Virus record (IMG/VR): IMGVR_UViG_3300030012_002976
Coordinates: 1 to 46,362 of that record
Length of the DNA stretch: 46,362 nt
Source of the DNA: a virus
Direction: 5' to 3' (one strand)
Numbering within the stretch: the stretch's first letter is position 1; each line of letters opens with the position of its first letter. Both the position numbers and the translations under genes were made by a program. Positions 14,119-24,710 of this stretch are shown here, piece by piece. The notes below the pieces were generated by a model that searched no databases, had not been told where the DNA came from, and saw only the letters and a program-made list of their open reading frames with translations.

Positions 14119-15600
14119 CTAATAATATACCTTTTGCTTTTGTTGTAAAGGTTCTTCCTCATAGTCCTCAGGATGGTTAATTAATCCACCCTGTCTAAAT
14201 CTCATAACAGCCTGGGTCATGGAATCTACTAAATCGTCATGATCTCCATAAGGAAATGCTGCACATTCCTCAATTACGTCTTGTGCAAATTCCATTTCAG
14301 TGGGCGCCCATATTCTCCCTGATTCAAACAGCGGAGAAACACTGTTAACTCTTGTATGTTTATCATTTCCTTTACTCGGTGTAAAGTTAATTACAGGTAT
14401 ACCCATCTTTCTTAATTCATAAGTCAAAGGTAACCCTGATGCCTTACTCTCGACTATAACTGTTTCTGGTTTCCAATATCCGTATTGTTCAAGAGCAATA
14501 CGTCTTAACTCTGGAAACTCATATCGACCTTTTAATGAATCTATAAGCATGAGACAGGGACCACTATCTTCGTTTGGTGTAAACACTCCCCAAGTTGTAA
14601 TAGCAGAATAGTCAGCAGTTTCTTTTTTCATGAAAGCAGTATCATAAGATTGTATTACATGTTCCAATGCAGGTAATTCTTCTGACTCCCACTTTTGCCA
14701 CCACTCACGTTTAATTAGTGCACCTTCTTCTGAAGTAGGATTCTGCATATATTGTGCATTCCACTTTGAACCAGGAATCGAGGCTTTAACTGCTTGCAAG
14801 TCTTTCAAGTTCCAGTATTCAGGCCACAGGGGTTTACCACTTGGTAAGATCGCAGGAAACTCAATTACCTCCCATTGATCTGCCTTTGGTTCTTTTTGTG
14901 CATTAATTAATCTTCCTGTTAAATCTTTTTCATTCCAACGAGTCATTACAATTACAATAGTTCCACCAGGTTGAAGACGTTGTCTAGGACCCGATGTATA
15001 CCACTCGTAAGTTCTTTCAAGAGCTGCAGCATTCATTGCATCTTGTTCAGTATGTGGATCATCAATAATTAATAGATCAGCACCACGACCTGTAATTGCA
15101 GAGCCAACACCCGCAGCATAATATTCTCCACCATCAGAAGTTTCCCATTTACCTGCAGCTTGAGAATCTTCTTTTAATCTTGTTTTAAATACTTGTTGAT
15201 ACTCTGGTGAATCAATTAATTGTTTTGCCTTACGACCAAACCTTACAGATAATTCAGTTGTATTAGTTGATTGAATAATTTTTAATTTTGGATTTCTACC
15301 TACCATCCACGCAGGAAGTAGATAAGATGCAAACTCAGACTTAGTATGTCTAGGCGCCATATTAATTATTACACGCTTTATCTTTCCATCTGCAATATCA
15401 TTAAATTTTTTTGCTACACGTTTATGATGGGACCCTTCTACAAAATCAGGCCAAACGTGTTTTACAAAAGCCATAAAATCGTTTTGGATTCGAGACTCCT
15501 TTTTCTTCTCTTGCCATTGATTCATTAGCAAAGAGAATTGTCGTCTTACATCTGCAGGAAGTTTTTCAAAATTTTTTAATTTTTCTTTATCAATATTCAT
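14119..15600 (-). CDS. terL: Terminase large subunit
   Basis: 493 residues from ATG 15600, chosen because GGAA lies just upstream; a TTG four codons earlier is less likely. The ATPase half has an adenine-side QNDFMAFVKHVWP, a variant Walker A APRHTKSE (about 82-89), Walker B LLIIDD (about 176-181) and coupling motif MTRWNEKD. The RNase-H-like nuclease half has SYDTAFMKKETADYSA, VIVESKASGLPL and a final GDHDDLVDSM, giving the Asp/Glu/Asp metal site. It cuts concatemers and pumps DNA through the portal. Unusually, the small subunit lies on the opposite strand 6.4 kb away. Confidence 0.93.
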   Translation of the reverse strand: MNIDKEKLKNFEKLPADVRRQFSLLMNQWQEKKKESRIQNDFMAFVKHVWPDFVEGSHHKRVAKKFNDIADGKIKRVIINMAPRHTKSEFASYLLPAWMVGRNPKLKIIQSTNTTELSVRFGRKAKQLIDSPEYQQVFKTRLKEDSQAAGKWETSDGGEYYAAGVGSAITGRGADLLIIDDPHTEQDAMNAAALERTYEWYTSGPRQRLQPGGTIVIVMTRWNEKDLTGRLINAQKEPKADQWEVIEFPAILPSGKPLWPEYWNLKDLQAVKASIPGSKWNAQYMQNPTSEEGALIKREWWQKWESEELPALEHVIQSYDTAFMKKETADYSAITTWGVFTPNEDSGPCLMLIDSLKGRYEFPELRRIALEQYGYWKPETVIVESKASGLPLTYELRKMGIPVINFTPSKGNDKHTRVNSVSPLFESGRIWAPTEMEFAQDVIEECAAFPYGDHDDLVDSMTQAVMRFRQGGLINHPEDYEEEPLQQKQKVYY

Positions 15601-15611
15601 AATGCATTCCA

Positions 15612-15635
15612 AAAAAAATTTTGCAAAATTTTTTT
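15612..15635. repeat. 24-base A/T palindrome before terL
   Basis: Seven A, four T, then GC, then four A and seven T make a perfect palindrome just 11 bases before the terminase start codon. It could be a bent protein-binding site or a weak mRNA hairpin masking the poor ribosome site. Nothing else explains it. Confidence 0.5.
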
Positions 15636-15789: not shown

Positions 15790-15854
15790 TGCGACATTTT
15801 GTCGCACCCCTGCGACATTTTGTCGCATGCGAGGAGGTGCGACATTTTGTCGCA
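15790..15854. repeat. Three tandem copies of the TGCGACATTTTGTCGCA palindrome
   Basis: Copies lie at 15790-15806, 15811-15827 and 15838-15854. Each has 7-base arms around TTT; the third extends to 9-base arms (GGTGCGACA). They sit between the small gene ending at 15868 and the terminase promoter, so they could act as a terminator array, an operator cluster or both. Related copies occur at 19715, 19771 and 21081. Confidence 0.8.
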
Positions 15855-15867
15855 CCCCTTAATGGTG

Positions 15868-16098
15868 TTAGTCTAATAACACCATGTAAGCTTCTGCATT
15901 ATGCTTTCTAAAATAGTCAAGATCTTTACGCACCTTGTCCCATAGTTTACTTGCACCGTAGCCTAGTTCCTTGTCCTCTAACGTTGCACCTAATTCATTG
16001 ATAAATATTCTGTCATGAATTATTGCTTCTTCTTTTGTTAACATAACAGACTCGCCGTTGAATCTGTTCTTTCTTTCTTCTGTTCTTTCTTTTGTCAT
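15868..16098 (-). CDS. Small hypothetical protein in cassette A
   Basis: 76 residues from ATG 16098 (MTKERTEERKNRFNGESVML), preceded by GCGAGGAAAT. A longer frame exists, but its first 12 codons would be promoter and leader sequence. The product has LTKEEAIIHDRIFINELGAT and a C-terminal DLDYFRKHNAEAYMVLLD, a pattern I have seen in short marine phage proteins of unknown function. Headed by the regulatory cassette at 16099-16168. Function unknown; position among other single-gene cassettes suggests early expression. Confidence 0.72.
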   Translation of the reverse strand: MTKERTEERKNRFNGESVMLTKEEAIIHDRIFINELGATLEDKELGYGASKLWDKVRKDLDYFRKHNAEAYMVLLD

Positions 16099-16168
16099 AT
16101 TTCCTCGCTTTGTTATGGACCTATTATAGCACAATCACGATGCAATTGCCATTGTCAACATTGTCGCA
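16099..16168 (-). promoter_or_regulatory. Regulatory cassette A
   Basis: Minus strand order: half-site TGCGACA (16162-16168), three bases, TTGACA (16153-16158), 24 bases, TATAAT (16123-16128) within TGCTATAATAGG, then a 24-base leader with GCGAGGAAAT directly before ATG. The same 71-base layout occurs three more times. TGCTATAAT is a perfect extended -10. The upstream half of the cassette overlaps the last codons of the next gene (16135-16542). Confidence 0.75.
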
Positions 16169-16542
16169 CCATGTTTAATATAACCTTTTAAATATTTCAT
16201 ACATTCTGTTTTATTTAATAAATATCCATCCAATGTTGGTTTCATTAATGGGCATTTATCATCATGTCCAAAACCTGTAACCGCATGAACTATTTCATGA
16301 AATACAATATTTCTTAATGCGTCCTGGCTCATGTCAACTGCTCTTTTTGTAATCCAAATTTGTTTCTTACTTAATTTGGCTACACCTAAAACATTGTGAT
16401 TTCTAGCCTCACCAATTCTAACTTCTATTCTAGGTAAATCTTTAATTTCTTTTTTTGCTTCGTAGATTAATTCAATAACTTGTCTTCTTAGTTTGTATAC
16501 TGCGTCGTTCATCTTGAAGTTTTTTATTTGTTTTGTTTTCAT
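16135..16542 (-). CDS. Putative zinc metallopeptidase (HEXXH)
   Basis: 135 residues from ATG 16542 (MKTKQIKNFKMNDAVYKLRR); codons upstream are promoter sequence. A zinc-protease motif HEIVHAVTGFGH lies at 82-93 (HExxH with Glu as base and a possible third His at 93) followed by DDKCPLM. The preceding strand QIWITKRAVD and helix LRNIVFHEIVH fit SprT/WLM-like minimal metallopeptidases. Such proteins in phages are of unknown target. The last residues (ATMLTMAIAS) are encoded by the next cassette's promoter, so coding and control overlap. Confidence 0.7.
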   Translation of the reverse strand: MKTKQIKNFKMNDAVYKLRRQVIELIYEAKKEIKDLPRIEVRIGEARNHNVLGVAKLSKKQIWITKRAVDMSQDALRNIVFHEIVHAVTGFGHDDKCPLMKPTLDGYLLNKTECMKYLKGYIKHGATMLTMAIAS

Positions 16543-16612
16543 CTTTCCTCGCTTTGTTATGGACCTATTATAGCACAATGGCGCCGTAGGCGCCATTGTC
16601 AATATTGTCGCA
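16543..16612 (-). promoter_or_regulatory. Regulatory cassette B with 10-bp palindrome
   Basis: TGCGACA (16606-16612), three bases, TTGACA (16597-16602), 24 bases, TATAAT (16567-16572), leader and GCGAGGAAAG before ATG. Arms CAATGGCGCC (16576-16585) and GGCGCCATTG (16589-16598) around a 3-base loop fill the spacer. The palindrome could end transcription of the upstream gene or bind a dimeric regulator over the promoter. Confidence 0.75.
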
Positions 16613-16614
16613 GG

Positions 16615-16743
16615 TTAGTCCTCATAAAACTCTGGGTCATCTGGCATAATATCTATATCTTCCATATATGCCTCCACAGACTCTTCCCACATTATCTGCT
16701 CATGTACATCCTGCATTAAATCGTAGTCATTTTCGTAATCCAT
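16615..16743 (-). CDS. 42-residue acidic protein in cassette C
   Basis: From ATG 16743, MDYENDYDLMQDVHEQIMWE then a stretch of Asp, Glu and Met ending DDPEFYED. Strongly acidic and probably helical. It has the full 71-base cassette and the shared GCGAGGAAAT ribosome site. Small acidic early phage proteins are often inhibitors or DNA mimics; that is only a guess here. Confidence 0.65.
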   Translation of the reverse strand: MDYENDYDLMQDVHEQIMWEESVEAYMEDIDIMPDDPEFYED

Positions 16744-16813
16744 ATTTCCTCGCTTTGTTATGGTCCTATTATAGCACAATGGCGCCTTAAGCGCCATTGT
16801 CAATATTGTCGCA
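16744..16813 (-). promoter_or_regulatory. Regulatory cassette C with 10-bp palindrome
   Basis: TGCGACA (16807-16813), three bases, TTGACA (16798-16803), 24 bases, TATAAT (16768-16773), same leader and ribosome site. Palindrome arms ACAATGGCGC (16776-16785) and GCGCCATTGT (16791-16800). Compared with cassette B the loop changes while the arms stay paired, which supports selection for the inverted repeat. Confidence 0.75.
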
Positions 16814-16814
16814 G

Positions 16815-16961
16815 TTAAACTTTTGTTCTTTCTTCTTCTAAGTCTTTTAATCTACTTAATTCTTCTTTTAATTTTAATTCTTCTTTTAAAAGAAAAATTT
16901 GCATATCTTTTATTTGAGTTATTCTTGCTAGTATTATTACTTGTTCTTGTTTGTTATCCAT
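16815..16961 (-). CDS. 48-residue coiled-coil protein in cassette D
   Basis: From ATG 16961 with GCGAGGAAAT upstream: MDNKQEQVIILARITQIKDM then LLKEELKLKEELSRLKDLEE. Leucines at 7-residue spacing suggest a short parallel coiled coil. It is too short for most gene callers but has a full cassette and a stop just before the next cassette. Possibly a dimeric regulator or inhibitor; no DNA-binding motif is visible. Confidence 0.65.
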   Translation of the reverse strand: MDNKQEQVIILARITQIKDMQIFLLKEELKLKEELSRLKDLEEERTKV

Positions 16962-17031
16962 ATTTCCTCGCTTTGTTATGTGCCCATTATAGCATTAATG
17001 GGCACATAAGTACATTATCAACTTTGTCGCA
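16962..17031 (-). promoter_or_regulatory. Regulatory cassette D with 13-bp palindrome
   Basis: TGCGACA (17025-17031), three bases, TTGATA (17016-17021), 24 bases, TATAAT (16986-16991), same distance to ATG as A-C. Here the palindrome arms TATGTGCCCATTA (16977-16989) and TAATGGGCACATA (16996-17008) straddle the -10 itself. The arm sequence differs completely from cassettes B and C, so the pairing rather than the sequence is kept. Confidence 0.75.
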
Positions 17032-17326
17032 CCTCAATATTCCAATGACTCCAACCATATTGGCTTGTTTCTTTTTTTGGGTCCTCGATTTCTGTTTCGA
17101 GAGGCTCGGTCCTTGGGTACATATTAATAAACTGTTCCCAATGTTCATACATGAAATCATTCCAACAACCTTGACCACAAAAATGCGACCACATATTATT
17201 GGCATTCCATTGCGTTTCTTTTATTTTTCGAGTCCTTAAAACTTTATGCCCCTTGACACCTCGGACTCGGTCTGTCGTTGTTTTCTCATGGCATTTTGGT
17301 CCATGACACCAATTATAATCACTCAT
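17018..17326 (-). CDS. Zinc-finger-like small protein
   Basis: 102 residues from ATG 17326, with GGAG upstream and a 4-base ATGA overlap with the previous stop. MSDYNWCHGPKCHEKTTTDR gives Cys at 7 and 12; WSHFCGQGCWNDFMYEHW gives Cys at 50 and 54. Two Cys pairs suggest a treble-clef or zinc-ribbon fold. The remainder is polar (PRTEPLETEIEDPKKE). The last codons run into cassette D. Function unknown; it is co-transcribed with the 62-residue gene before it. Confidence 0.7.
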   Translation of the reverse strand: MSDYNWCHGPKCHEKTTTDRVRGVKGHKVLRTRKIKETQWNANNMWSHFCGQGCWNDFMYEHWEQFINMYPRTEPLETEIEDPKKETSQYGWSHWNIEVRQS

Positions 17327-17511
17327 TTAATACTCCATGTGTCGGTTGCATTTCTGTACTCATTCTTATCCACATCAAAATAAGTCATGATTAAACGACC
17401 TGCTTTTGAAGTCCAATATCTGCATTGGTCTGTCCATAACGCATTTCTAGTAATTGTCTTTTTATCTTTTGCTGAGTAGTAAGTCACAGTAAAAGGTTTA
17501 TTCTTTAACAT
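17323..17511 (-). CDS. Small hypothetical protein in cassette F
   Basis: 62 residues from ATG 17511 (MLKNKPFTVTYYSAKDKKTI), with GCGAGGAAAT upstream; earlier in-frame codons are promoter. The product is beta-rich with many aromatic residues (LWTDQCRYWTSKAGRLIMTYF) like a small one-domain fold. Overlaps the following zinc-finger-like gene by four bases. No family recognised. Confidence 0.7.
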   Translation of the reverse strand: MLKNKPFTVTYYSAKDKKTITRNALWTDQCRYWTSKAGRLIMTYFDVDKNEYRNATDTWSIK

Positions 17512-17586
17512 ATTTCCTCGCTTTCTTTTGTTATGAGGGCAGTATAGCACAACTGCCCTCATAAGTACATTTACATTATTGTCGCA
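17512..17586 (-). promoter_or_regulatory. Regulatory cassette F with palindrome over the -10
   Basis: TGCGACA (17580-17586), three bases, poor hexamer ATGTAA (17571-17576), 24 bases, TATACT (17541-17546) in TGTGCTATACT, then a leader five bases longer than in A-D. The palindrome TATGAGGGCAGT / ACTGCCCTCATA flanks the -10. The half-site overlaps the last codons (SATIM) of the gene ending at 17571. Confidence 0.65.
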
Positions 17587-18543: not shown

Positions 18544-18584
18544 ATTATAACAAATGATTGTGGCGAAATTAAGTCGCCACAATC
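18544..18584 (-). promoter_or_regulatory. Hairpin plus extended -10 before the 315-residue gene
   Basis: Arms GATTGTGGCGA (18556-18566) and TCGCCACAATC (18574-18584) form an 11-bp stem; six bases later comes TGTTATAAT, a perfect extended -10 (18544-18549 for TATAAT). The pair looks like a terminator for the gene ending at 18600 fused to a promoter for the next gene. A similar GTGGCG stem and extended -10 follows the capsid gene. Confidence 0.65.
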
Positions 18585-18997: not shown

Positions 18998-19062
18998 ATT
19001 ATACTAAAACAATGTGGCAAGAATGTGTCCAAACAAAAAATATTTTTGGACAGATTGTCGCA
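18998..19062 (-). promoter_or_regulatory. Leftward promoter region with half-site and hairpin
   Basis: TATAAT at 18998-19003 (minus). Upstream lie inverted arms TGTCCAAA (19026-19033) and TTTGGACA (19045-19052) and then a TGCGACA half-site (19056-19062). The order half-site, palindrome, -10 is the same as in the cassettes, with a different -35 region (TTGGAC, 23 bases before TATAAT). Confidence 0.5.
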
Positions 19063-19142
19063 CCTAAATATACATGGGTATATTATTCCCGACCAGCCCA
19101 CCCCTATTATATCACAAAAAAAGAGAAACGTATATTCACCAA

Positions 19143-19219
19143 ATTGTCGCACCTGCGACAATCTTGACCAATTCTTTTTTCTTCTTTGACACATTGTTGC
19201 CACAATCTTTTGTTATAAT
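19143..19219 (+). promoter_or_regulatory. Rightward promoter region with paired half-sites
   Basis: ATTGTCGCA (19143-19151), two bases, TGCGACAAT (19154-19162) is a perfect inverted pair of half-sites; TTGACC follows three bases after the second, then TTGACA (19186-19191) and, 22 bases on, TGTTATAAT (TATAAT 19214-19219), an extended -10. A small leader hairpin GTATTC/GAATAC (19226-19242) and AAAGCGAG precede the gene at 19258. It is the plus-strand mirror of the leftward cassettes. Confidence 0.6.
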
Positions 19220-19443: not shown

Positions 19444-19448
19444 AAATT

Positions 19449-19669
19449 GGTTCAGGTTACTTTAGAATTAAAGCTATAGACCTGAACCACGGGACAGATC
19501 CAGTGTCACACCGCTCGCCTCCATGAGCCGTCTTCACTGGATGCTGATCCCTGGTCCCTTGGGAGAGTATTCGCGATGCTCCATAATGCGCAGATTGCTC
19601 AAGGGACCTGGGATCAGTTGGCAATACCGCCACCAGGCTAATGGTCCAGGCCAGGACCTGCAACCTGAA
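19449..19669 (+). ncRNA. Candidate structured RNA, unknown class
   Basis: This GC-richer segment has no convincing gene but a dense set of complementary arms: GGTTCAGGT 19449-19457 with 19480-19488 (nested CTTTA/TAAAG); ATCCAGTG 19498-19505 with 19535-19542 (nested GCTC/GAGC); an 18-bp arm 19544-19561 with 19600-19617 (one mismatch), capped by GAGTAT/ATGCTC; and GGTCC/GGACC 19643-19658. TTCAGGTT (19451-19458) can instead pair with AACCTGAA (19662-19669), closing the whole element. It follows a plus-strand gene and precedes a terminator-like hairpin at 19711. I recognise no known RNA class. Confidence 0.55.
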
Positions 19670-19710
19670 GTAAGGGACGCCTACTGGTCACCTTTCTTGG
19701 TTATGTTAAT

Positions 19711-19735
19711 GTCCTGCGACATTTTGTCGCAGGAC
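19711..19735 (+). terminator. 25-base palindrome, terminator-like
   Basis: GTCCTGCGACA and TGTCGCAGGAC pair over 11 bp around TTT, followed by ATTTTGTCTT. It contains the 17-base palindrome seen at 15790 and is the longest-armed copy. It would end a plus-strand transcript carrying the 19258 gene and the structured segment, but could equally be an operator. Confidence 0.6.
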
Positions 19736-19756
19736 ATTTTGTCTTCTTGACCGAGT

Positions 19757-19847
19757 GTCAAGCAACAAGCTGCGACATTTTGTCGCGCGACAATTTAGGG
19801 AGTAGACAGAGTTTCAAGCAACAAGCGTCAAGCAACAAGCTGCGACA
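19757..19847. repeat. CAAGC repeats joined to TGCGACA palindromes
   Basis: GTCAAGCAACAAGC occurs at 19757-19770 and 19827-19840, with TCAAGCAACAAGC at 19814-19826. Two copies run straight into TGCGACA (19771 and 19841); the first continues as the near-complete palindrome 19771-19787. The 19690-19916 gap holds these repeats, the palindromes and the promoter of the next gene, and no good coding frame. Confidence 0.75.
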
Positions 19848-19886
19848 ATGTTGCAAGTATAAAAATTAAAAAATTTTTGTTAAAAT
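19841..19886 (+). promoter_or_regulatory. Plus-strand copy of the regulatory cassette
   Basis: TGCGACA (19841-19847), three bases, TTGCAA (19851-19856), exactly 24 bases, TAAAAT (19881-19886) in TGTTAAAAT, an extended -10. The spacing is identical to the leftward cassettes although the spacer sequence is unrelated. It drives the gene at 19917 through a 30-base leader ending AAAGGAAAAC. Confidence 0.65.
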
Positions 19887-19916
19887 ATTGTTTTTAATTT
19901 TTACAGAAAGGAAAAC

Positions 19917-20126
19917 ATGAACGACAATATGAAGTACACAAAAATGTTGATTGACCAACAGCACTCTGTTTTGGTTGATGTTATTAATTATCTGGACCAG
20001 ATAAGTCATAGCGACACGCACATCAGGCACAAGGTTGATGTAGTGTTAAATCATTTTACGCACGTTAATAAAAAATCAACAGAAGAAATTGAAGAAGTTG
20101 AAGGAGGAAAAGATGAAGACAGATGA
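19917..20126 (+). CDS. Small helical hypothetical protein
   Basis: 69 residues, MNDNMKYTKMLIDQQHSVLV followed by DVINYLDQISHSDTHIRHKV and an acidic tail EEIEEVEGGKDEDR. Clear AAGGA ribosome site. Almost all helix, with His-rich middle. Ends 14 bases inside the GP88-like gene, whose ribosome site (GAAGGAGG) is embedded in its last codons. Function unknown. Confidence 0.72.
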   Translation: MNDNMKYTKMLIDQQHSVLVDVINYLDQISHSDTHIRHKVDVVLNHFTHVNKKSTEEIEEVEGGKDEDR

Positions 20127-20715
20127 AGCATTGAAAATTGTTGGAGGGCTGTCAAAGCCCTCTAAGATGCCTGGATGGGCCTACGGGTTACCAGCTAAGG
20201 AGTGCAAAACAGGTAAGAAGCTTAGATACATTGAAGGCAGCACTTGCTACGGCTGTTATGCATTGAAGGGCTGCTACGTCTTTGAAGTAGTTCAGGCTGC
20301 ACAATACAGGAGACTGGAAGCAACGAAGAGCGCGAGCTGGGTTGATGCAATGGCACAATTGATCAATTCAAAAAAATCAAAATATTTTAGATGGCACGAC
20401 AGCGGCGACGTTCAGGATCTGGACCATTTGATGAAGATCTTTGAAGTGTGTGAGCTGTCCCCTGGCGTTAAACACTGGATGCCTACACGGGAGGCCTGGG
20501 TCAAAAAATATTTAAAAGATAAACCTGCAAATTTGGTGATCAGGTTTTCTATGCCAATGGTAGACCAGGCTGCAGCTAACAGCTGGCCAAACACGTCAAC
20601 GGTTGTGTCTGGTGCTGGTAGAACGTGTCCAGCCCCTGATCAAAATAATGAGTGTAAAGACTGTAGAGCGTGCTGGGACAGTGATGTCCATAACATCGCA
20701 TATGGTAAACACTAA
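20113..20715 (+). CDS. Cys-rich GP88-like phage protein
   Basis: 200 residues from ATG 20113, six bases after GGAGG. Motifs: STCYGCYALKGCY (Cys 45, 48, 54), FRWHDSGDVQD (His 95, Asp 99), HWMPTREAW, and a C-terminal CPAPDQNNECKDCRACW (Cys 172, 181, 184, 187). This layout matches a phage family I know as GP88/DUF7227-like. The two Cys clusters may bind an iron-sulphur centre or zinc; a radical-SAM-like origin has been suggested by the CxxCY pattern in related families but is inference here. Codon use is GC-richer than in the replication genes. Confidence 0.7.
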   Translation: MKTDEALKIVGGLSKPSKMPGWAYGLPAKECKTGKKLRYIEGSTCYGCYALKGCYVFEVVQAAQYRRLEATKSASWVDAMAQLINSKKSKYFRWHDSGDVQDLDHLMKIFEVCELSPGVKHWMPTREAWVKKYLKDKPANLVIRFSMPMVDQAAANSWPNTSTVVSGAGRTCPAPDQNNECKDCRACWDSDVHNIAYGKH

Positions 20716-20903
20716 TGAAAAAAACAAAATATACTTTTATGTATCGATCCAGCTGCGGGCATCTTATGCGGCCTGAATCATTTTTAAATATTAACAAAGG
20801 GCGCACGCTGTCAAGCAGCCAGCTGCGGGCCCTGGGTATAACAAAGGTAAAAACTAATGGTCTGGTATCACCCGAAGCACTACAAAGAACTGGAAAAGAT
20901 TAG
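20715..20903 (+). CDS. Small hypothetical protein coupled to the GP88-like gene
   Basis: 62 residues, MKKTKYTFMYRSSCGHLMRP, starting in a TAATG overlap with the preceding stop. The middle is encoded by sequence resembling the CAAGC repeats (TLSSSQLRALGI). Its end overlaps the next frame by 47 bases. Coupling supports translation; composition gives no function. Confidence 0.5.
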   Translation: MKKTKYTFMYRSSCGHLMRPESFLNINKGRTLSSSQLRALGITKVKTNGLVSPEALQRTGKD

Positions 20904-21030
20904 AAAAGAACTTGAAGCAAAGCTGAAGCGTCAAGCAGCAAGCGACAAGCAGGAAGGAGGAAGCAATGAAGAAGAAAAGCAACAAGCGCTGGGACCAGCG
21001 TCAAGCAGCACTGGCAATGAAGATTCATGA
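20857..21030 (+). CDS. 57-residue helical protein partly made from repeats
   Basis: From ATG 20857 after AAAGG: MVWYHPKHYKELEKIRKELE is a convincing amphipathic helix, then the frame passes through CAAGC repeats as KRQAASDKQEGGSNEEEKQQ and ends NEDS. It overlaps both neighbouring frames. The first half looks selected as protein, the second half looks like repeat-derived extension. Confidence 0.5.
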   Translation: MVWYHPKHYKELEKIRKELEAKLKRQAASDKQEGGSNEEEKQQALGPASSSTGNEDS

Positions 21031-21209
21031 AGCCTGGGCATATGACAATGGATACAGGGCTCAAGCTCCGAGGCACAAGCTGCGACAAAATGTCGCGCGG
21101 TATAATGCCTCAGACTATAAAGCCTCAAGCAACAAGCAACAAGCGTCGTAACCCACGGCGCATGTAGCTGGTCCCCATGGTGCAGGCGTCAAGCCACAAG
21201 CATCAAGCT
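20931..21209. repeat. CAAGC repeat cluster with one palindrome
   Basis: Variants of TCAAGCAACAAGC occur near 20931, 20977, 21001, 21125 (three units) and 21188-21209, and the palindrome TGCGACAAAATGTCGCG lies at 21081-21097. They run through the ends of two plus-strand frames and the end of the convergent minus gene, altering their C-termini. The same family is found at 19757-19847. Confidence 0.7.
20966..21151 (+). CDS. Small basic protein ending in repeat sequence
   Basis: 61 residues from ATG 20966 with an excellent AAGGAGGAAGC site. MKKKSNKRWDQRQAALAMKI and HEAWAYDNGYRAQAPRHKLR look like a real helical protein; the tail (NVARYNASDYKASSNKQQAS) is read through the palindrome at 21081 and CAAGC repeats. 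It overlaps the convergent nuclease gene by 37 bases. Function unknown. Confidence 0.52.
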   Translation: MKKKSNKRWDQRQAALAMKIHEAWAYDNGYRAQAPRHKLRQNVARYNASDYKASSNKQQAS

Positions 21210-21726: not shown

Positions 21727-21888
21727 AACTTTTTAACCTGGCGCTCAGTATCCTGCGGTACAATGAGATAAAGACCGTGTCGTAAGCCAACGCCAGGCAA
21801 CAAACAAAAAAGATGATTACCGTGCAACAAATACCAAAACACGACAATCATTGATTAATATATCAAGTTATGTTAAAAAATCAATACT
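21727..21888. other. Gap between divergent genes
   Basis: 162 bases without a gene. CCTGGCG (21737-21743) and CGCCAGG (21791-21797) are distant inverted arms. On the plus strand TTGATT, 17 bases and TAAAAA (with TG two bases before) form a plausible promoter for the gene at 21889. Nothing else is seen. Confidence 0.45.
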
Positions 21889-22065
21889 ATGTCAAAAGAA
21901 AAAGGAAGACAATGGGACGGTAAATCAAGGATTTCTAATGCGATATATCGTCAACGTTGGAATGAGATATTTAATAAAGAAAAATCTGTATCAGAATTAT
22001 TACAGGAAGGATTTGAGGAAGAGCAAAATGGGACTACCAAAGAAGCTGACGGAACAACAGATTAA
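21889..22065 (+). CDS. 58-residue protein before terminase small subunit
   Basis: From ATG 21889: MSKEKGRQWDGKSRISNAIY, then RQRWNEIFNKEKSVSELLQE and an acidic polar end. The Lys-Gly-Arg-x-Trp-Asp-Gly-x-Ser-Arg start is one I have met in marine phage genomes directly before terS. It overlaps the terS start by 38 bases in another frame, and its GAGGAAGAGC codons supply the terS ribosome site. Possibly a packaging partner; function unknown. Confidence 0.65.
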   Translation: MSKEKGRQWDGKSRISNAIYRQRWNEIFNKEKSVSELLQEGFEEEQNGTTKEADGTTD

Positions 22066-22606
22066 ATTTGCAAATTTATTAGTTAGTGAAGAAGGAAGAA
22101 AGACTGCAACACAGTGTGCTATCGATGCGGGTTATTCAAAAGACTCTGCACGTCAGCACGCAAGTATATTACAGAATCCAAAAAAATATCCACTTGTAGT
22201 TAAATACATAGGTGAACTCAGAGAAGAATTACAGAAAAAATATGATGTAACTTTTGGTAGTCACATATCAGAGTTAGCTAAATTAAGGGATGAGGCAAGA
22301 GTAAAGAAAGCTTGGTCAGCTGCAGTGAATGCTGAGGTTGCACGAGGAAAAGCTGCGGGTCTGTATATTGAGCAGAAGATAATACGAACTGGTAAATTAG
22401 AAGACTTAACAACAGAAGAATTAGAATCAAGAATGAAACAAATAATGGAGGACTATTCCCCAATCTTAGAAGGTGTTGAAGTAGAAGAGCTGAAGAGTAA
22501 AGTAAAAGAAAAGCACCGAGGATCTGTAAGAAAAGAAATTGATCCATCAGATCAAAACTCTCTCCATCTTAAGAATGCAACCGATGGGGAAGACATTCCT
22601 GTCTGA
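22028..22606 (+). CDS. terS: Terminase small subunit
   Basis: 192 residues from ATG 22028 (MGLPKKLTEQQIKFANLLVS); upstream in-frame codons belong to the overlapping small gene. LTEQQIKFANLLVSEEGRKT, AIDAGYSKDSARQHASILQN is the helix-turn-helix DNA-binding opening of Terminase_2-type small subunits, followed by a helical oligomerisation region (RDEARVKKAWSAAVNAEVAR, GLYIEQKI) and acidic tail. It recognises phage DNA and loads the large subunit. It lies on the plus strand, 6.4 kb from terL on the minus strand. Its last 60 bases overlap a convergent gene. Confidence 0.82.
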   Translation: MGLPKKLTEQQIKFANLLVSEEGRKTATQCAIDAGYSKDSARQHASILQNPKKYPLVVKYIGELREELQKKYDVTFGSHISELAKLRDEARVKKAWSAAVNAEVARGKAAGLYIEQKIIRTGKLEDLTTEELESRMKQIMEDYSPILEGVEVEELKSKVKEKHRGSVRKEIDPSDQNSLHLKNATDGEDIPV

Positions 22607-24270: not shown

Positions 24271-24559
24271 AATTATCCTCTATTTTGTTTAATGTTTTTC
24301 TTACTTTTGATCTTACCAAAGTATGATCAAGATCAGCATAATGACAAACTGTGGCAAAATCTTGATTTGGCTCTGTGACATATTCTATCTCTAGATTACG
24401 TTTGTTTTCATAGAACTCTTTGAATTTGCATTTTCTTTCTGTCGCCTTTATCGCATCTTCTATCGCTACAATCAAAACGTTTCTCCATAGACTTTTGTTT
24501 GGATCTTTTCGTTTGGACTCGATAACATCAATCGTTTTTAATCCTAGAAACCCTACCAT
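24167..24559 (-). CDS. Hypothetical helical protein overlapping the zinc finger gene
   Basis: 130 residues from ATG 24559 after GGAAG: LWRNVLIVAIEDAIKATERK, CKFKEFYENKRNLEIEYVTE, PNQDFATVCHYADLDHTLVR. The PNQDF and CHYADLDH motifs are familiar from marine phage proteins of unknown role. Residues past about 95 are read through the zinc-finger gene in another frame. Starts inside the preceding ribbon-helix-helix gene by 32 bases. Confidence 0.72.
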   Translation of the reverse strand: MVGFLGLKTIDVIESKRKDPNKSLWRNVLIVAIEDAIKATERKCKFKEFYENKRNLEIEYVTEPNQDFATVCHYADLDHTLVRSKVRKTLNKIEDNYAKKDMSELQREWVSQGNRSQRSLKLVRTINKAM

Positions 24560-24710
24560 TTAACTTCCTTACTTTTTCATTTATTATTATATCCAAAGCT
24601 TTGGCTCTAGAAACTTGTGTTAGCGGCACAATTACCTTGCGAATCTTGTCTAGTTTCTCACAAGAATCATGTGATAGTGCGACTGATTTGTATTTACTTA
24701 TATCTGTCAT
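24528..24710 (-). CDS. Ribbon-helix-helix-like regulator
   Basis: 60 residues: MTDISKYKSVALSHDSCEKL, DKIRKVIVPLTQVSRAKALD, IIINEKVRKLNGR. The short strand KSVALS followed by two helices (HDSCEKLDKIRKVI and SRAKALDIIINEKV) is the MetJ/CopG ribbon-helix-helix plan. It would dimerise and bind operator DNA. AAGGAG lies nine bases before ATG. It is a good candidate to bind one of the palindromes in this genome, but that is inference. Confidence 0.65.
   Translation of the reverse strand: MTDISKYKSVALSHDSCEKLDKIRKVIVPLTQVSRAKALDIIINEKVRKLNGRVSRIKND

Follow-up and report, generated by a model that had tools for sequence, protein, structure and literature searches.

A TGCGACA promoter cassette with fixed spacing and covarying hairpins before small genes of a probable HTVC027P-like marine phage

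A short promoter cassette, whose constant parts are the heptamer TGCGACA and, exactly 30 bases from it, an extended -10 element (TGnTATAAT), and not TTGACA, recurs before small genes of a virus that is probably a marine pelagiphage, and in its relatives. The arrangement is real and lies far beyond chance, and judging from its sequence we regard the cassette as conserved and functionally constrained. On balance, we think it probable that an extended -10 promoter of the host sigma70 type, an operator for a dimeric protein near -44 (probably an activator) and an insulating stem-loop are combined here into a compact monocistronic cassette. The host sigma70 RNA polymerase would recognise the extended -10, while a dimeric protein would bind a 17-bp imperfect palindrome, TGCGACA-N3-TGtcgcA, with TTGACAA as its right half in the window, and would touch the polymerase from a class-II-like position, making up for the weak -35. 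Acting in read-through transcripts of the upstream gene, the hairpins would insulate the neighbours, whether as 3'-end, processing or termination elements, and the cassette units would be swapped between genes and phages.

The window, i.e. the whole stretch of DNA that was analysed, is an IMG/VR virus record of 46,362 bases and represents only part of a genome type of ~58 kb. Its TerL is 83% identical to that of HTVC027P, a pelagiphage of Candidatus Pelagibacter HTCC1062, and its DNA polymerase is 73% identical to the HTVC027P counterpart, which points to an HTVC027P-like marine phage whose host is probably a SAR11 bacterium. Few marine viruses are as abundant as pelagiphages; to our knowledge, the way in which they time transcription with nothing but the host polymerase is poorly understood. 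For HTVC027P the infection transcriptome has been sequenced, and its early genes are all of unknown function (PMC12753301). The heptamer TGCGACA is absent from HTVC027P, HTVC023P and 023Pt_psg01. In the window, the cassette region lies between terL (14119-15612, minus strand) and terS (21851-22606, plus strand), an interval of small genes and plentiful non-coding DNA.

Five tandem minus-strand genes at 15868-17586, starting at 16098, 16542, 16743, 16961 and 17511, carry the cassette in the order TGCGACA, three bases, a hexamer, 24 bases, the -10, a GCGAGGAAA leader and ATG. The hexamer reads TTGACA in cassettes 1 to 3, TTGATA in cassette 4 and ATGTAA in cassette 5; the -10 is TATAAT in cassettes 1 to 4 and TATACT in cassette 5. 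Four of these cassettes are exactly as the original prediction described them, at the same coordinates. Its fifth copy, said to keep half-site, spacing and -10 with a weak hexamer, is likewise found, and the plus-strand copy that it placed at 19841-19886 fits with one mismatch. A looser copy proposed before terL does not belong to the series, its gap between TGCGACA and TTGACA being 10 bases instead of 3, with no -10 where one would be expected (4 mismatches). The first reading had missed two features, namely the TG that stands one base before the -10 hexamer in every cassette, and long inverted repeats that overlap the promoter in cassettes 2 to 5. It had also left out a further full member on the minus strand at 19106-19151. 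Cassette 1 is without a strong hairpin, and cassettes usually start 0-2 bases past the stop codon of the preceding gene. The features are as follows.

15790-15806, 15811-15827 and 15838-15854, no strand assigned: three perfect TGCGACA-NNN-TGTCGCA palindromes between terL and the cassette genes
15868-16098, minus: 76-aa ORF behind cassette 1, of the largest cassette-driven gene family (28 sites)
16123-16168, minus: cassette 1, with TGCGACA at 16162-16168, putative right half TTGACAA at 16152-16158 and extended -10 TGCTATAAT at 16123-16131
16135-16542, minus: gene behind cassette 2, with a weak SprT-like/metallo-protease match
16567-16612, minus: cassette 2, with TGCGACA at 16606-16612, putative right half at 16596-16602 and extended -10 at 16567-16575
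16575-16599, minus: spacer hairpin of cassette 2, ACAATGGCGCC-TAC-GGCGCCATTGT
16615-16743, minus: 42-aa acidic ORF behind cassette 3
16768-16813, minus: cassette 3, with TGCGACA at 16807-16813 and extended -10 at 16768-16776
16776-16800, minus: hairpin of cassette 3, ACAATGGCGC-TTAAG-GCGCCATTGT
16815-16961, minus: 48-aa ORF behind cassette 4
16976-17031, minus: cassette 4, with TGCGACA at 17025-17031, TTGATA and extended -10 at 16986-16994
16976-17009, minus: hairpin of cassette 4, TTATGTGCCCATTA..TAATGGGCACATAA, enclosing the -10
17323-17511, minus: 62-aa ORF behind cassette 5
17531-17586, minus: cassette 5, with TGCGACA at 17580-17586, ATGTAA and extended -10 at 17541-17549
17531-17564, minus: hairpin of cassette 5, TTATGAGGGCAGT..ACTGCCCTCATAA, enclosing the -10 (TATACT)
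18544-18584, minus: related composite without TGCGACA, with hairpin GATTGTGGCGA..TCGCCACAATC at 18556-18584 directly before TGTTATAAT at 18544-18552 and a GCGAGG leader
19106-19151, minus: further full member, with TGCGACA at 19145-19151 and extended -10 TGATATAAT at 19106-19114
19708-19738, plus: TGCGACA palindrome (19715-19731) in a stem followed by a T-rich tail, scored as terminator-like
19841-19886, plus: plus-strand member, with TGCGACA at 19841-19847, TTGCAA and extended -10 TGTTAAAAT at 19878-19886, one mismatch

The gene behind cassette 2 matched phrog_6445 (3.8e-5), phrog_87 (0.004) and a SprT-like family (E=1e-4, under the curated cut-off). The plus-strand member precedes an ORF at 19917-20126 and is conserved in contig G003, and the hairpin at 18556-18584, on the plus strand, scores as an intrinsic terminator with a good T-run in the terminator scan. 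Behind the promoter at 19106-19151 lies not an ORF but a conserved non-coding leader, AGGGGTGGGCTGGTCGGGAATAATATA / AGGGGTGGGYTGGTCGGGAATAATATA (19040-19110, minus strand); this leader, present in the window and in contigs L008, L025, L044, L056 and L352, is possibly a small RNA.

Whether the spacing is special was assessed by scanning 2.9 million viral contigs (IMG/VR) with TGCGACANNNTTGAYAN{10,40}TATAAT. TGCGACA-N3-TTGAYA was followed by TATAAT after exactly 24 bases in 38 of 62 sites and after 17 bases in 6 (binomial P ~1e-40 for n=24 against equal use of 31 spacings, overstated owing to the non-independence of related contigs). The TG of the extended -10 was present in 35 of these 38 sites, though the scan did not require it. 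With the same pattern, 84,980 bacterial and archaeal genomes gave 24 bases in 2 of 111 sites, with 11 each at 16 and 17; bacterial genomes show no excess at 24. After the TTGACA requirement was dropped (TGCGACAA...TGYTATAAT), the equivalent gap of 29 accounted for 24 of 103 sites among the matches listed, as compared with ~2.6 sites per other gap (P ~2e-14, again among the matches listed). Across 80 terL-related contigs, the extended -10 stood at offset 30 in 49 of 299 TGCGACA contexts, 0.32 being expected per offset, and the neighbouring offsets held 6 sites (29) and 2 sites (31). It should be added that the sites share descent, so that the P values overstate independence; a stronger argument comes from how diverse the spacers are, for 65 nonredundant sites diverge at nearly every position from -31 to -18 and keep the distance.

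Two types of hairpin were distinguished. Type A (ACAATGGC...GCCATTGT; cassettes 2 and 3) lies between half-site and -10 and runs from inside TTGACA to the TG of the extended -10, and type B (cassettes 4 and 5) has the -10 within the stem-loop. Fold z had a median of -1.5 over the 65 nonredundant sites and was below -3 in about 27; the spacing is also retained in T-rich spacers without any hairpin. Covariation reached 0.275 for type A against 0.123 in shuffled alignments and 0.413 for type B against 0.162 (0/500 in both cases), sliding the register abolished it for both types, and double-change cells numbered 21 against 7.5 (type A) and 17 against 6.2 (type B). Since compensatory changes exceed both shuffles and shifted registers, the hairpins are shown to be under selection. 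That the cassettes are merely recent duplicates, with a distance that was inherited and has no function, is improbable in the light of these data: leader and part of the spacer are alike between copies in one genome, as duplication would have it, but the 65 sites with divergent -31 to -18 segments keep their distance, the hairpin arms carry compensatory changes, and unrelated phages have the TGCGACA palindrome at an equivalent distance.

Among tolerated non-Watson-Crick pairs, sense-strand G-U outnumbered A-C by 10 to 2 (P=0.02), a modest excess that weakly points to sense-strand RNA. As the cassette's own transcript would start past the hairpin, no RNA but that reading through from the gene upstream would include it. 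Strong hairpins were present at 21 of 30 sites with a same-strand stop codon <=40 bases upstream (usually 0-2), against 5 of 34 (Fisher P=9e-6). The terminator scan found no U-tract after the hairpins and no terminator at cassettes 1 to 5, which makes processing, 3'-end protection or unconventional termination likelier than classic intrinsic termination. Altogether, the hairpin probably insulates the gene from its upstream neighbour.

A profile of the 65 nonredundant sites, for which TGCGACA and the -10 served as selection criteria, displayed in addition A at -45 (80%), T at -44 (86%), T at -42 (82%), AA at -37/-36 and T at -35 (98%). The second hexamer could not be retained as a fixed element, TTGACA being one of about a dozen variants at constant spacing (TTGACA, TTGATA, ATGACA, ATGTAA, TGCACA, TGTACA, TGTGCA, TGTCCA, TGGTGA and others), and in other phages its place is taken by TGTCGCA, a perfect inverted half, with offset and -10 unchanged. 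Because the second hexamer varies and the exact inverted half occurs elsewhere, we favour reading TGCGACA-N3-(TGTCGCA-like) as an operator of 17 bp whose centre lies near -44 and of which the distal half is strong and the proximal half weak. TTGACAA agrees with TGTCGCA at 2 of 7 positions, and we take it for a half-site in the window copies with little confidence; a direct repeat, GCGACAAT-N-TTGACAAT, would be an alternative to the palindrome. Relatives with the palindrome have a -35 hexamer (TTTACA, TTGACT) directly next to the operator, at the normal 17-base spacing; in the window class this position is degenerate (T, then G/T, G/T, A/C).

TTGACA could instead be a true sigma70 -35, aligned with the -10 over 24 bases by a spacer hairpin (cruciform) or by a MerR-like protein. 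TTGACA is the commonest second element among the sites listed, and the extent of the type A hairpins would suit such a role; yet the second hexamer is free to vary at the same spacing (TGTCCA, TGGTGA, ATGTAA, TGCACA), hairpin-free T-rich spacers keep it, and type B hairpins include the -10. MerR-type promoters have a 19-20 base spacer and one conserved operator. The cassettes resemble them in the inverted repeat between TTGACA and TATAAT but differ in having 24 bases, in covarying arms that differ between copies and in a spacing kept without the repeat, and we therefore consider a long-spacer -35 quite unlikely.

The reading of TGCGACA as part of an operator is also consistent with its placement in diverse phages, where 12 of 53 distances between palindrome and -10 fell at n=22-24 and 25 of 53 at n=32-33. 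The two distances are one helical turn apart and both lie upstream of the -35, and such helical phasing suggests a protein that contacts the polymerase, most simply an activator; the strict spacing likewise speaks for an activator rather than a repressor. That a repressor, encoded by phage or host, binds TGCGACA-N3-half-site upstream of a constitutively strong extended -10 and silences the small genes at some stage, or in a carrier state, is in our view rather unlikely. The near-perfect TGnTATAAT may need no activator, and full palindromes are also found away from these promoters (15790-15854, 19715-19731). However, repressors tolerate many positions, and here offset 30 is near-exclusive (49 sites against 6 and 2 at its neighbours); moreover, the site lies upstream of the -35, which is degenerate, and covers neither the -10 nor +1.

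Unrelated viral contigs (G+C 31-57%) carry TGCGACA-N3-TGTCGCA before promoters at the two phased distances, with n=23 in L249, L285, L341, L354 and L359 and n=32-33 in L362, L369, L387, L401, L416 and others. Several of the n=32/33 palindromes resemble intrinsic terminators (GGTGCGACA..TGTCGCACC-TTTTT). A perfect bacterial parS-like site (TGTTTCACGTGAAACA) was seen within the cassette, mostly in the 24-base spacer, in L268, L283, L280, L215, L237, L352 and L204, which suggests a possible involvement of host ParB. We tentatively propose that TGCGACA-N3-TGTCGCA may be the operator of one regulator, of phage or host, used by several unrelated marine phage groups at -44 and about -54 to turn on early-type genes and fused with covarying RNA hairpins into one-gene cassettes in HTVC027P-like pelagiphages; this wider scheme we hold to be possible and no stronger.

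The window proteins searched, from part of the ~58-kb genome type, included no recognisable helix-turn-helix protein, sigma factor or RNA polymerase. A sigma factor sought by synteny with DSL-LC04 was discarded, the window protein between primase and helicase being HhH-GPD. A phage-modified RNA polymerase or phage sigma factor that reads a new promoter class would account for the unusual and fixed 24-base spacing; against it stand the search just described, the HhH-GPD protein and an ordinary extended sigma70 -10, so that we consider it very improbable, and a modified polymerase appears unnecessary. Hence, of the interpretations offered originally, the best fit is an extended -10 promoter whose operator includes TTGACA, and a special regulator is plausible; the modified RNA polymerase is not supported, the window proteins searched having yielded no polymerase or sigma factor and the -10 being near the sigma70 consensus.

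The pattern TGCGACA-N29-31-TGnTATAAT occurred in 0 of 147 SAR11-family genomes sampled; together with the TGCGACA-free relatives HTVC023P and HTVC027P, this suggests a regulator that is probably limited to this clade of phages or to some subgroup of hosts. Among the literature matches listed, the heptamer had only unrelated uses. Two small proteins were considered as candidates.

20966-21151, plus: 61-aa ORF, in 10 of 12 TGCGACA-rich contigs and 0 of 12 others
24528-24710, minus: ribbon-helix-helix-like protein of 60 aa, recognised by eye, with no Pfam match and two subfamilies

One ribbon-helix-helix-like subfamily tracks TGCGACA number (13 vs 12 contigs, P=1e-5), an association that amounts to a single change on the terL tree. 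Upstream of its gene, ATCCTATA was present in 65/76 and 72/76 and TGCGACA in 2/76 and 0/76; the conserved ATCCTATA suggests autoregulation. The protein is not supported as the TGCGACA binder in view of the single tree change and of its own gene carrying ATCCTATA rather than TGCGACA, from which it probably binds something else. The 61-aa ORF was set aside as well, its clade link meeting the same one-event problem and nothing tying it to the site. In most contigs a TGCGACA site lies inside its coding sequence, and AAGCAACAAGC repeats in it encode QATSNK-like stretches; dispersed AAGCAACAAGC / CAAGCGTCAAGC repeats occupy intergenic DNA and this ORF at 19500-21150. No regulator common to these phages and the unrelated TGCGACA-palindrome phages was seen in the parts of the latter contigs that were compared. 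In 46 of 398 genomes of the inferred host phylum, Pseudomonadota (L437-L456), the palindrome TGCGACANNNTGTCGCA occurred 63 times, against 9 for its reversed control, which is also an inverted repeat; this about seven-fold excess leaves room for a bacterial regulator, and no neighbour gene common to the TGCGACANNNTGTCGCA sites in these genomes was seen.

In related phages, 112 cassette-gene pairs fell into 27 families, mostly of small genes, and within one gene family the spacer could be of type A, type B or another kind, depending on the phage. Orthologues with different spacers imply that promoter units and genes recombine, i.e. that the unit is modular. Of the 'phage-encoded regulon' suggested originally, 'regulon' is a fair term, given sites before 27 gene families, and the phage-encoded part is not supported, no binding protein having been recognised.

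In sequence terms, the cassettes are like extended -10 sigma70 promoters in their TGnTATAAT and weak or absent -35, and unlike plain ones in having a further, invariant element that lies 30 bases upstream of the TG. Class II activated promoters (lambda CI at PRM, CRP) have a site centre at about -42. In T4 middle promoters the MotA box is centred at about -30 (PMC2988021). The cassettes share with both a good -10 preceded, at a fixed distance, by a putative regulator site in place of the -35, but the centre of this site near -44 differs from either, and TGCGACA-N3-TGTCGCA, unlike the CI, CRP and MotA sites, was not matched to a known regulator.

A closer parallel is offered by the promoter early stem-loop cassettes (PeSLs) of T4-type phages (Arbiol et al. 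2010, Comeau et al. 2014, cited in PMC4503421), through which gene modules are shuffled in T4 relatives (PMC4503421). As PeSLs are summarised in that source, the present cassettes are like them in packing stem-loop and host-type promoter into a single short intergenic stretch, and in their many copies per genome before different small genes, shuffled between phages. They are unlike PeSLs in that cassettes 1 to 5 have no intrinsic terminator with a U-tract, only the composite at 18556-18584 scoring as one, on the plus strand; in that the virus is an HTVC027P-like pelagiphage and not a T4-type myovirus; and in that the hairpin overlaps the promoter itself. With two defining features (U-tract terminator, T4-type virus) lacking, we do not file the cassette as a PeSL; it is best described as a PeSL-like composite with an activator-type operator, which would work like a PeSL with parts of its own. 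We know of no fixed operator like TGCGACA (about -52 to -46) in PeSLs.

A structured non-coding RNA was also noted on the plus strand at about 19444-19700, with its core at 19494-19548. The core has the form P1 - G|UCACACC - P2 - CGUCUU|C - P1', followed by a long CUGAUCCCUGGUCC...GGACCUGGGAUCAG hairpin; fold z of the region was -6.1 and covariation 0.917 against 0.301 shuffled (16 sequences). It had 16 matches in 60 sources, none in HTVC027P/023P, and in L031, L054 and L230 it lies directly behind a TGCGACA cassette promoter, from which its transcription is predicted. Rfam gave no gathering match in the window, this RNA included, and it is apparently a new structured RNA.

The cassette, repeated and alignable as it is, yields predictions for dozens of genes of where transcription starts, where a regulator binds and where insulation lies, and can be used as a scan query in metatranscriptomes. 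Its architecture suggests that T4-like promoter/stem-loop cassettes arose in an unrelated phage lineage.
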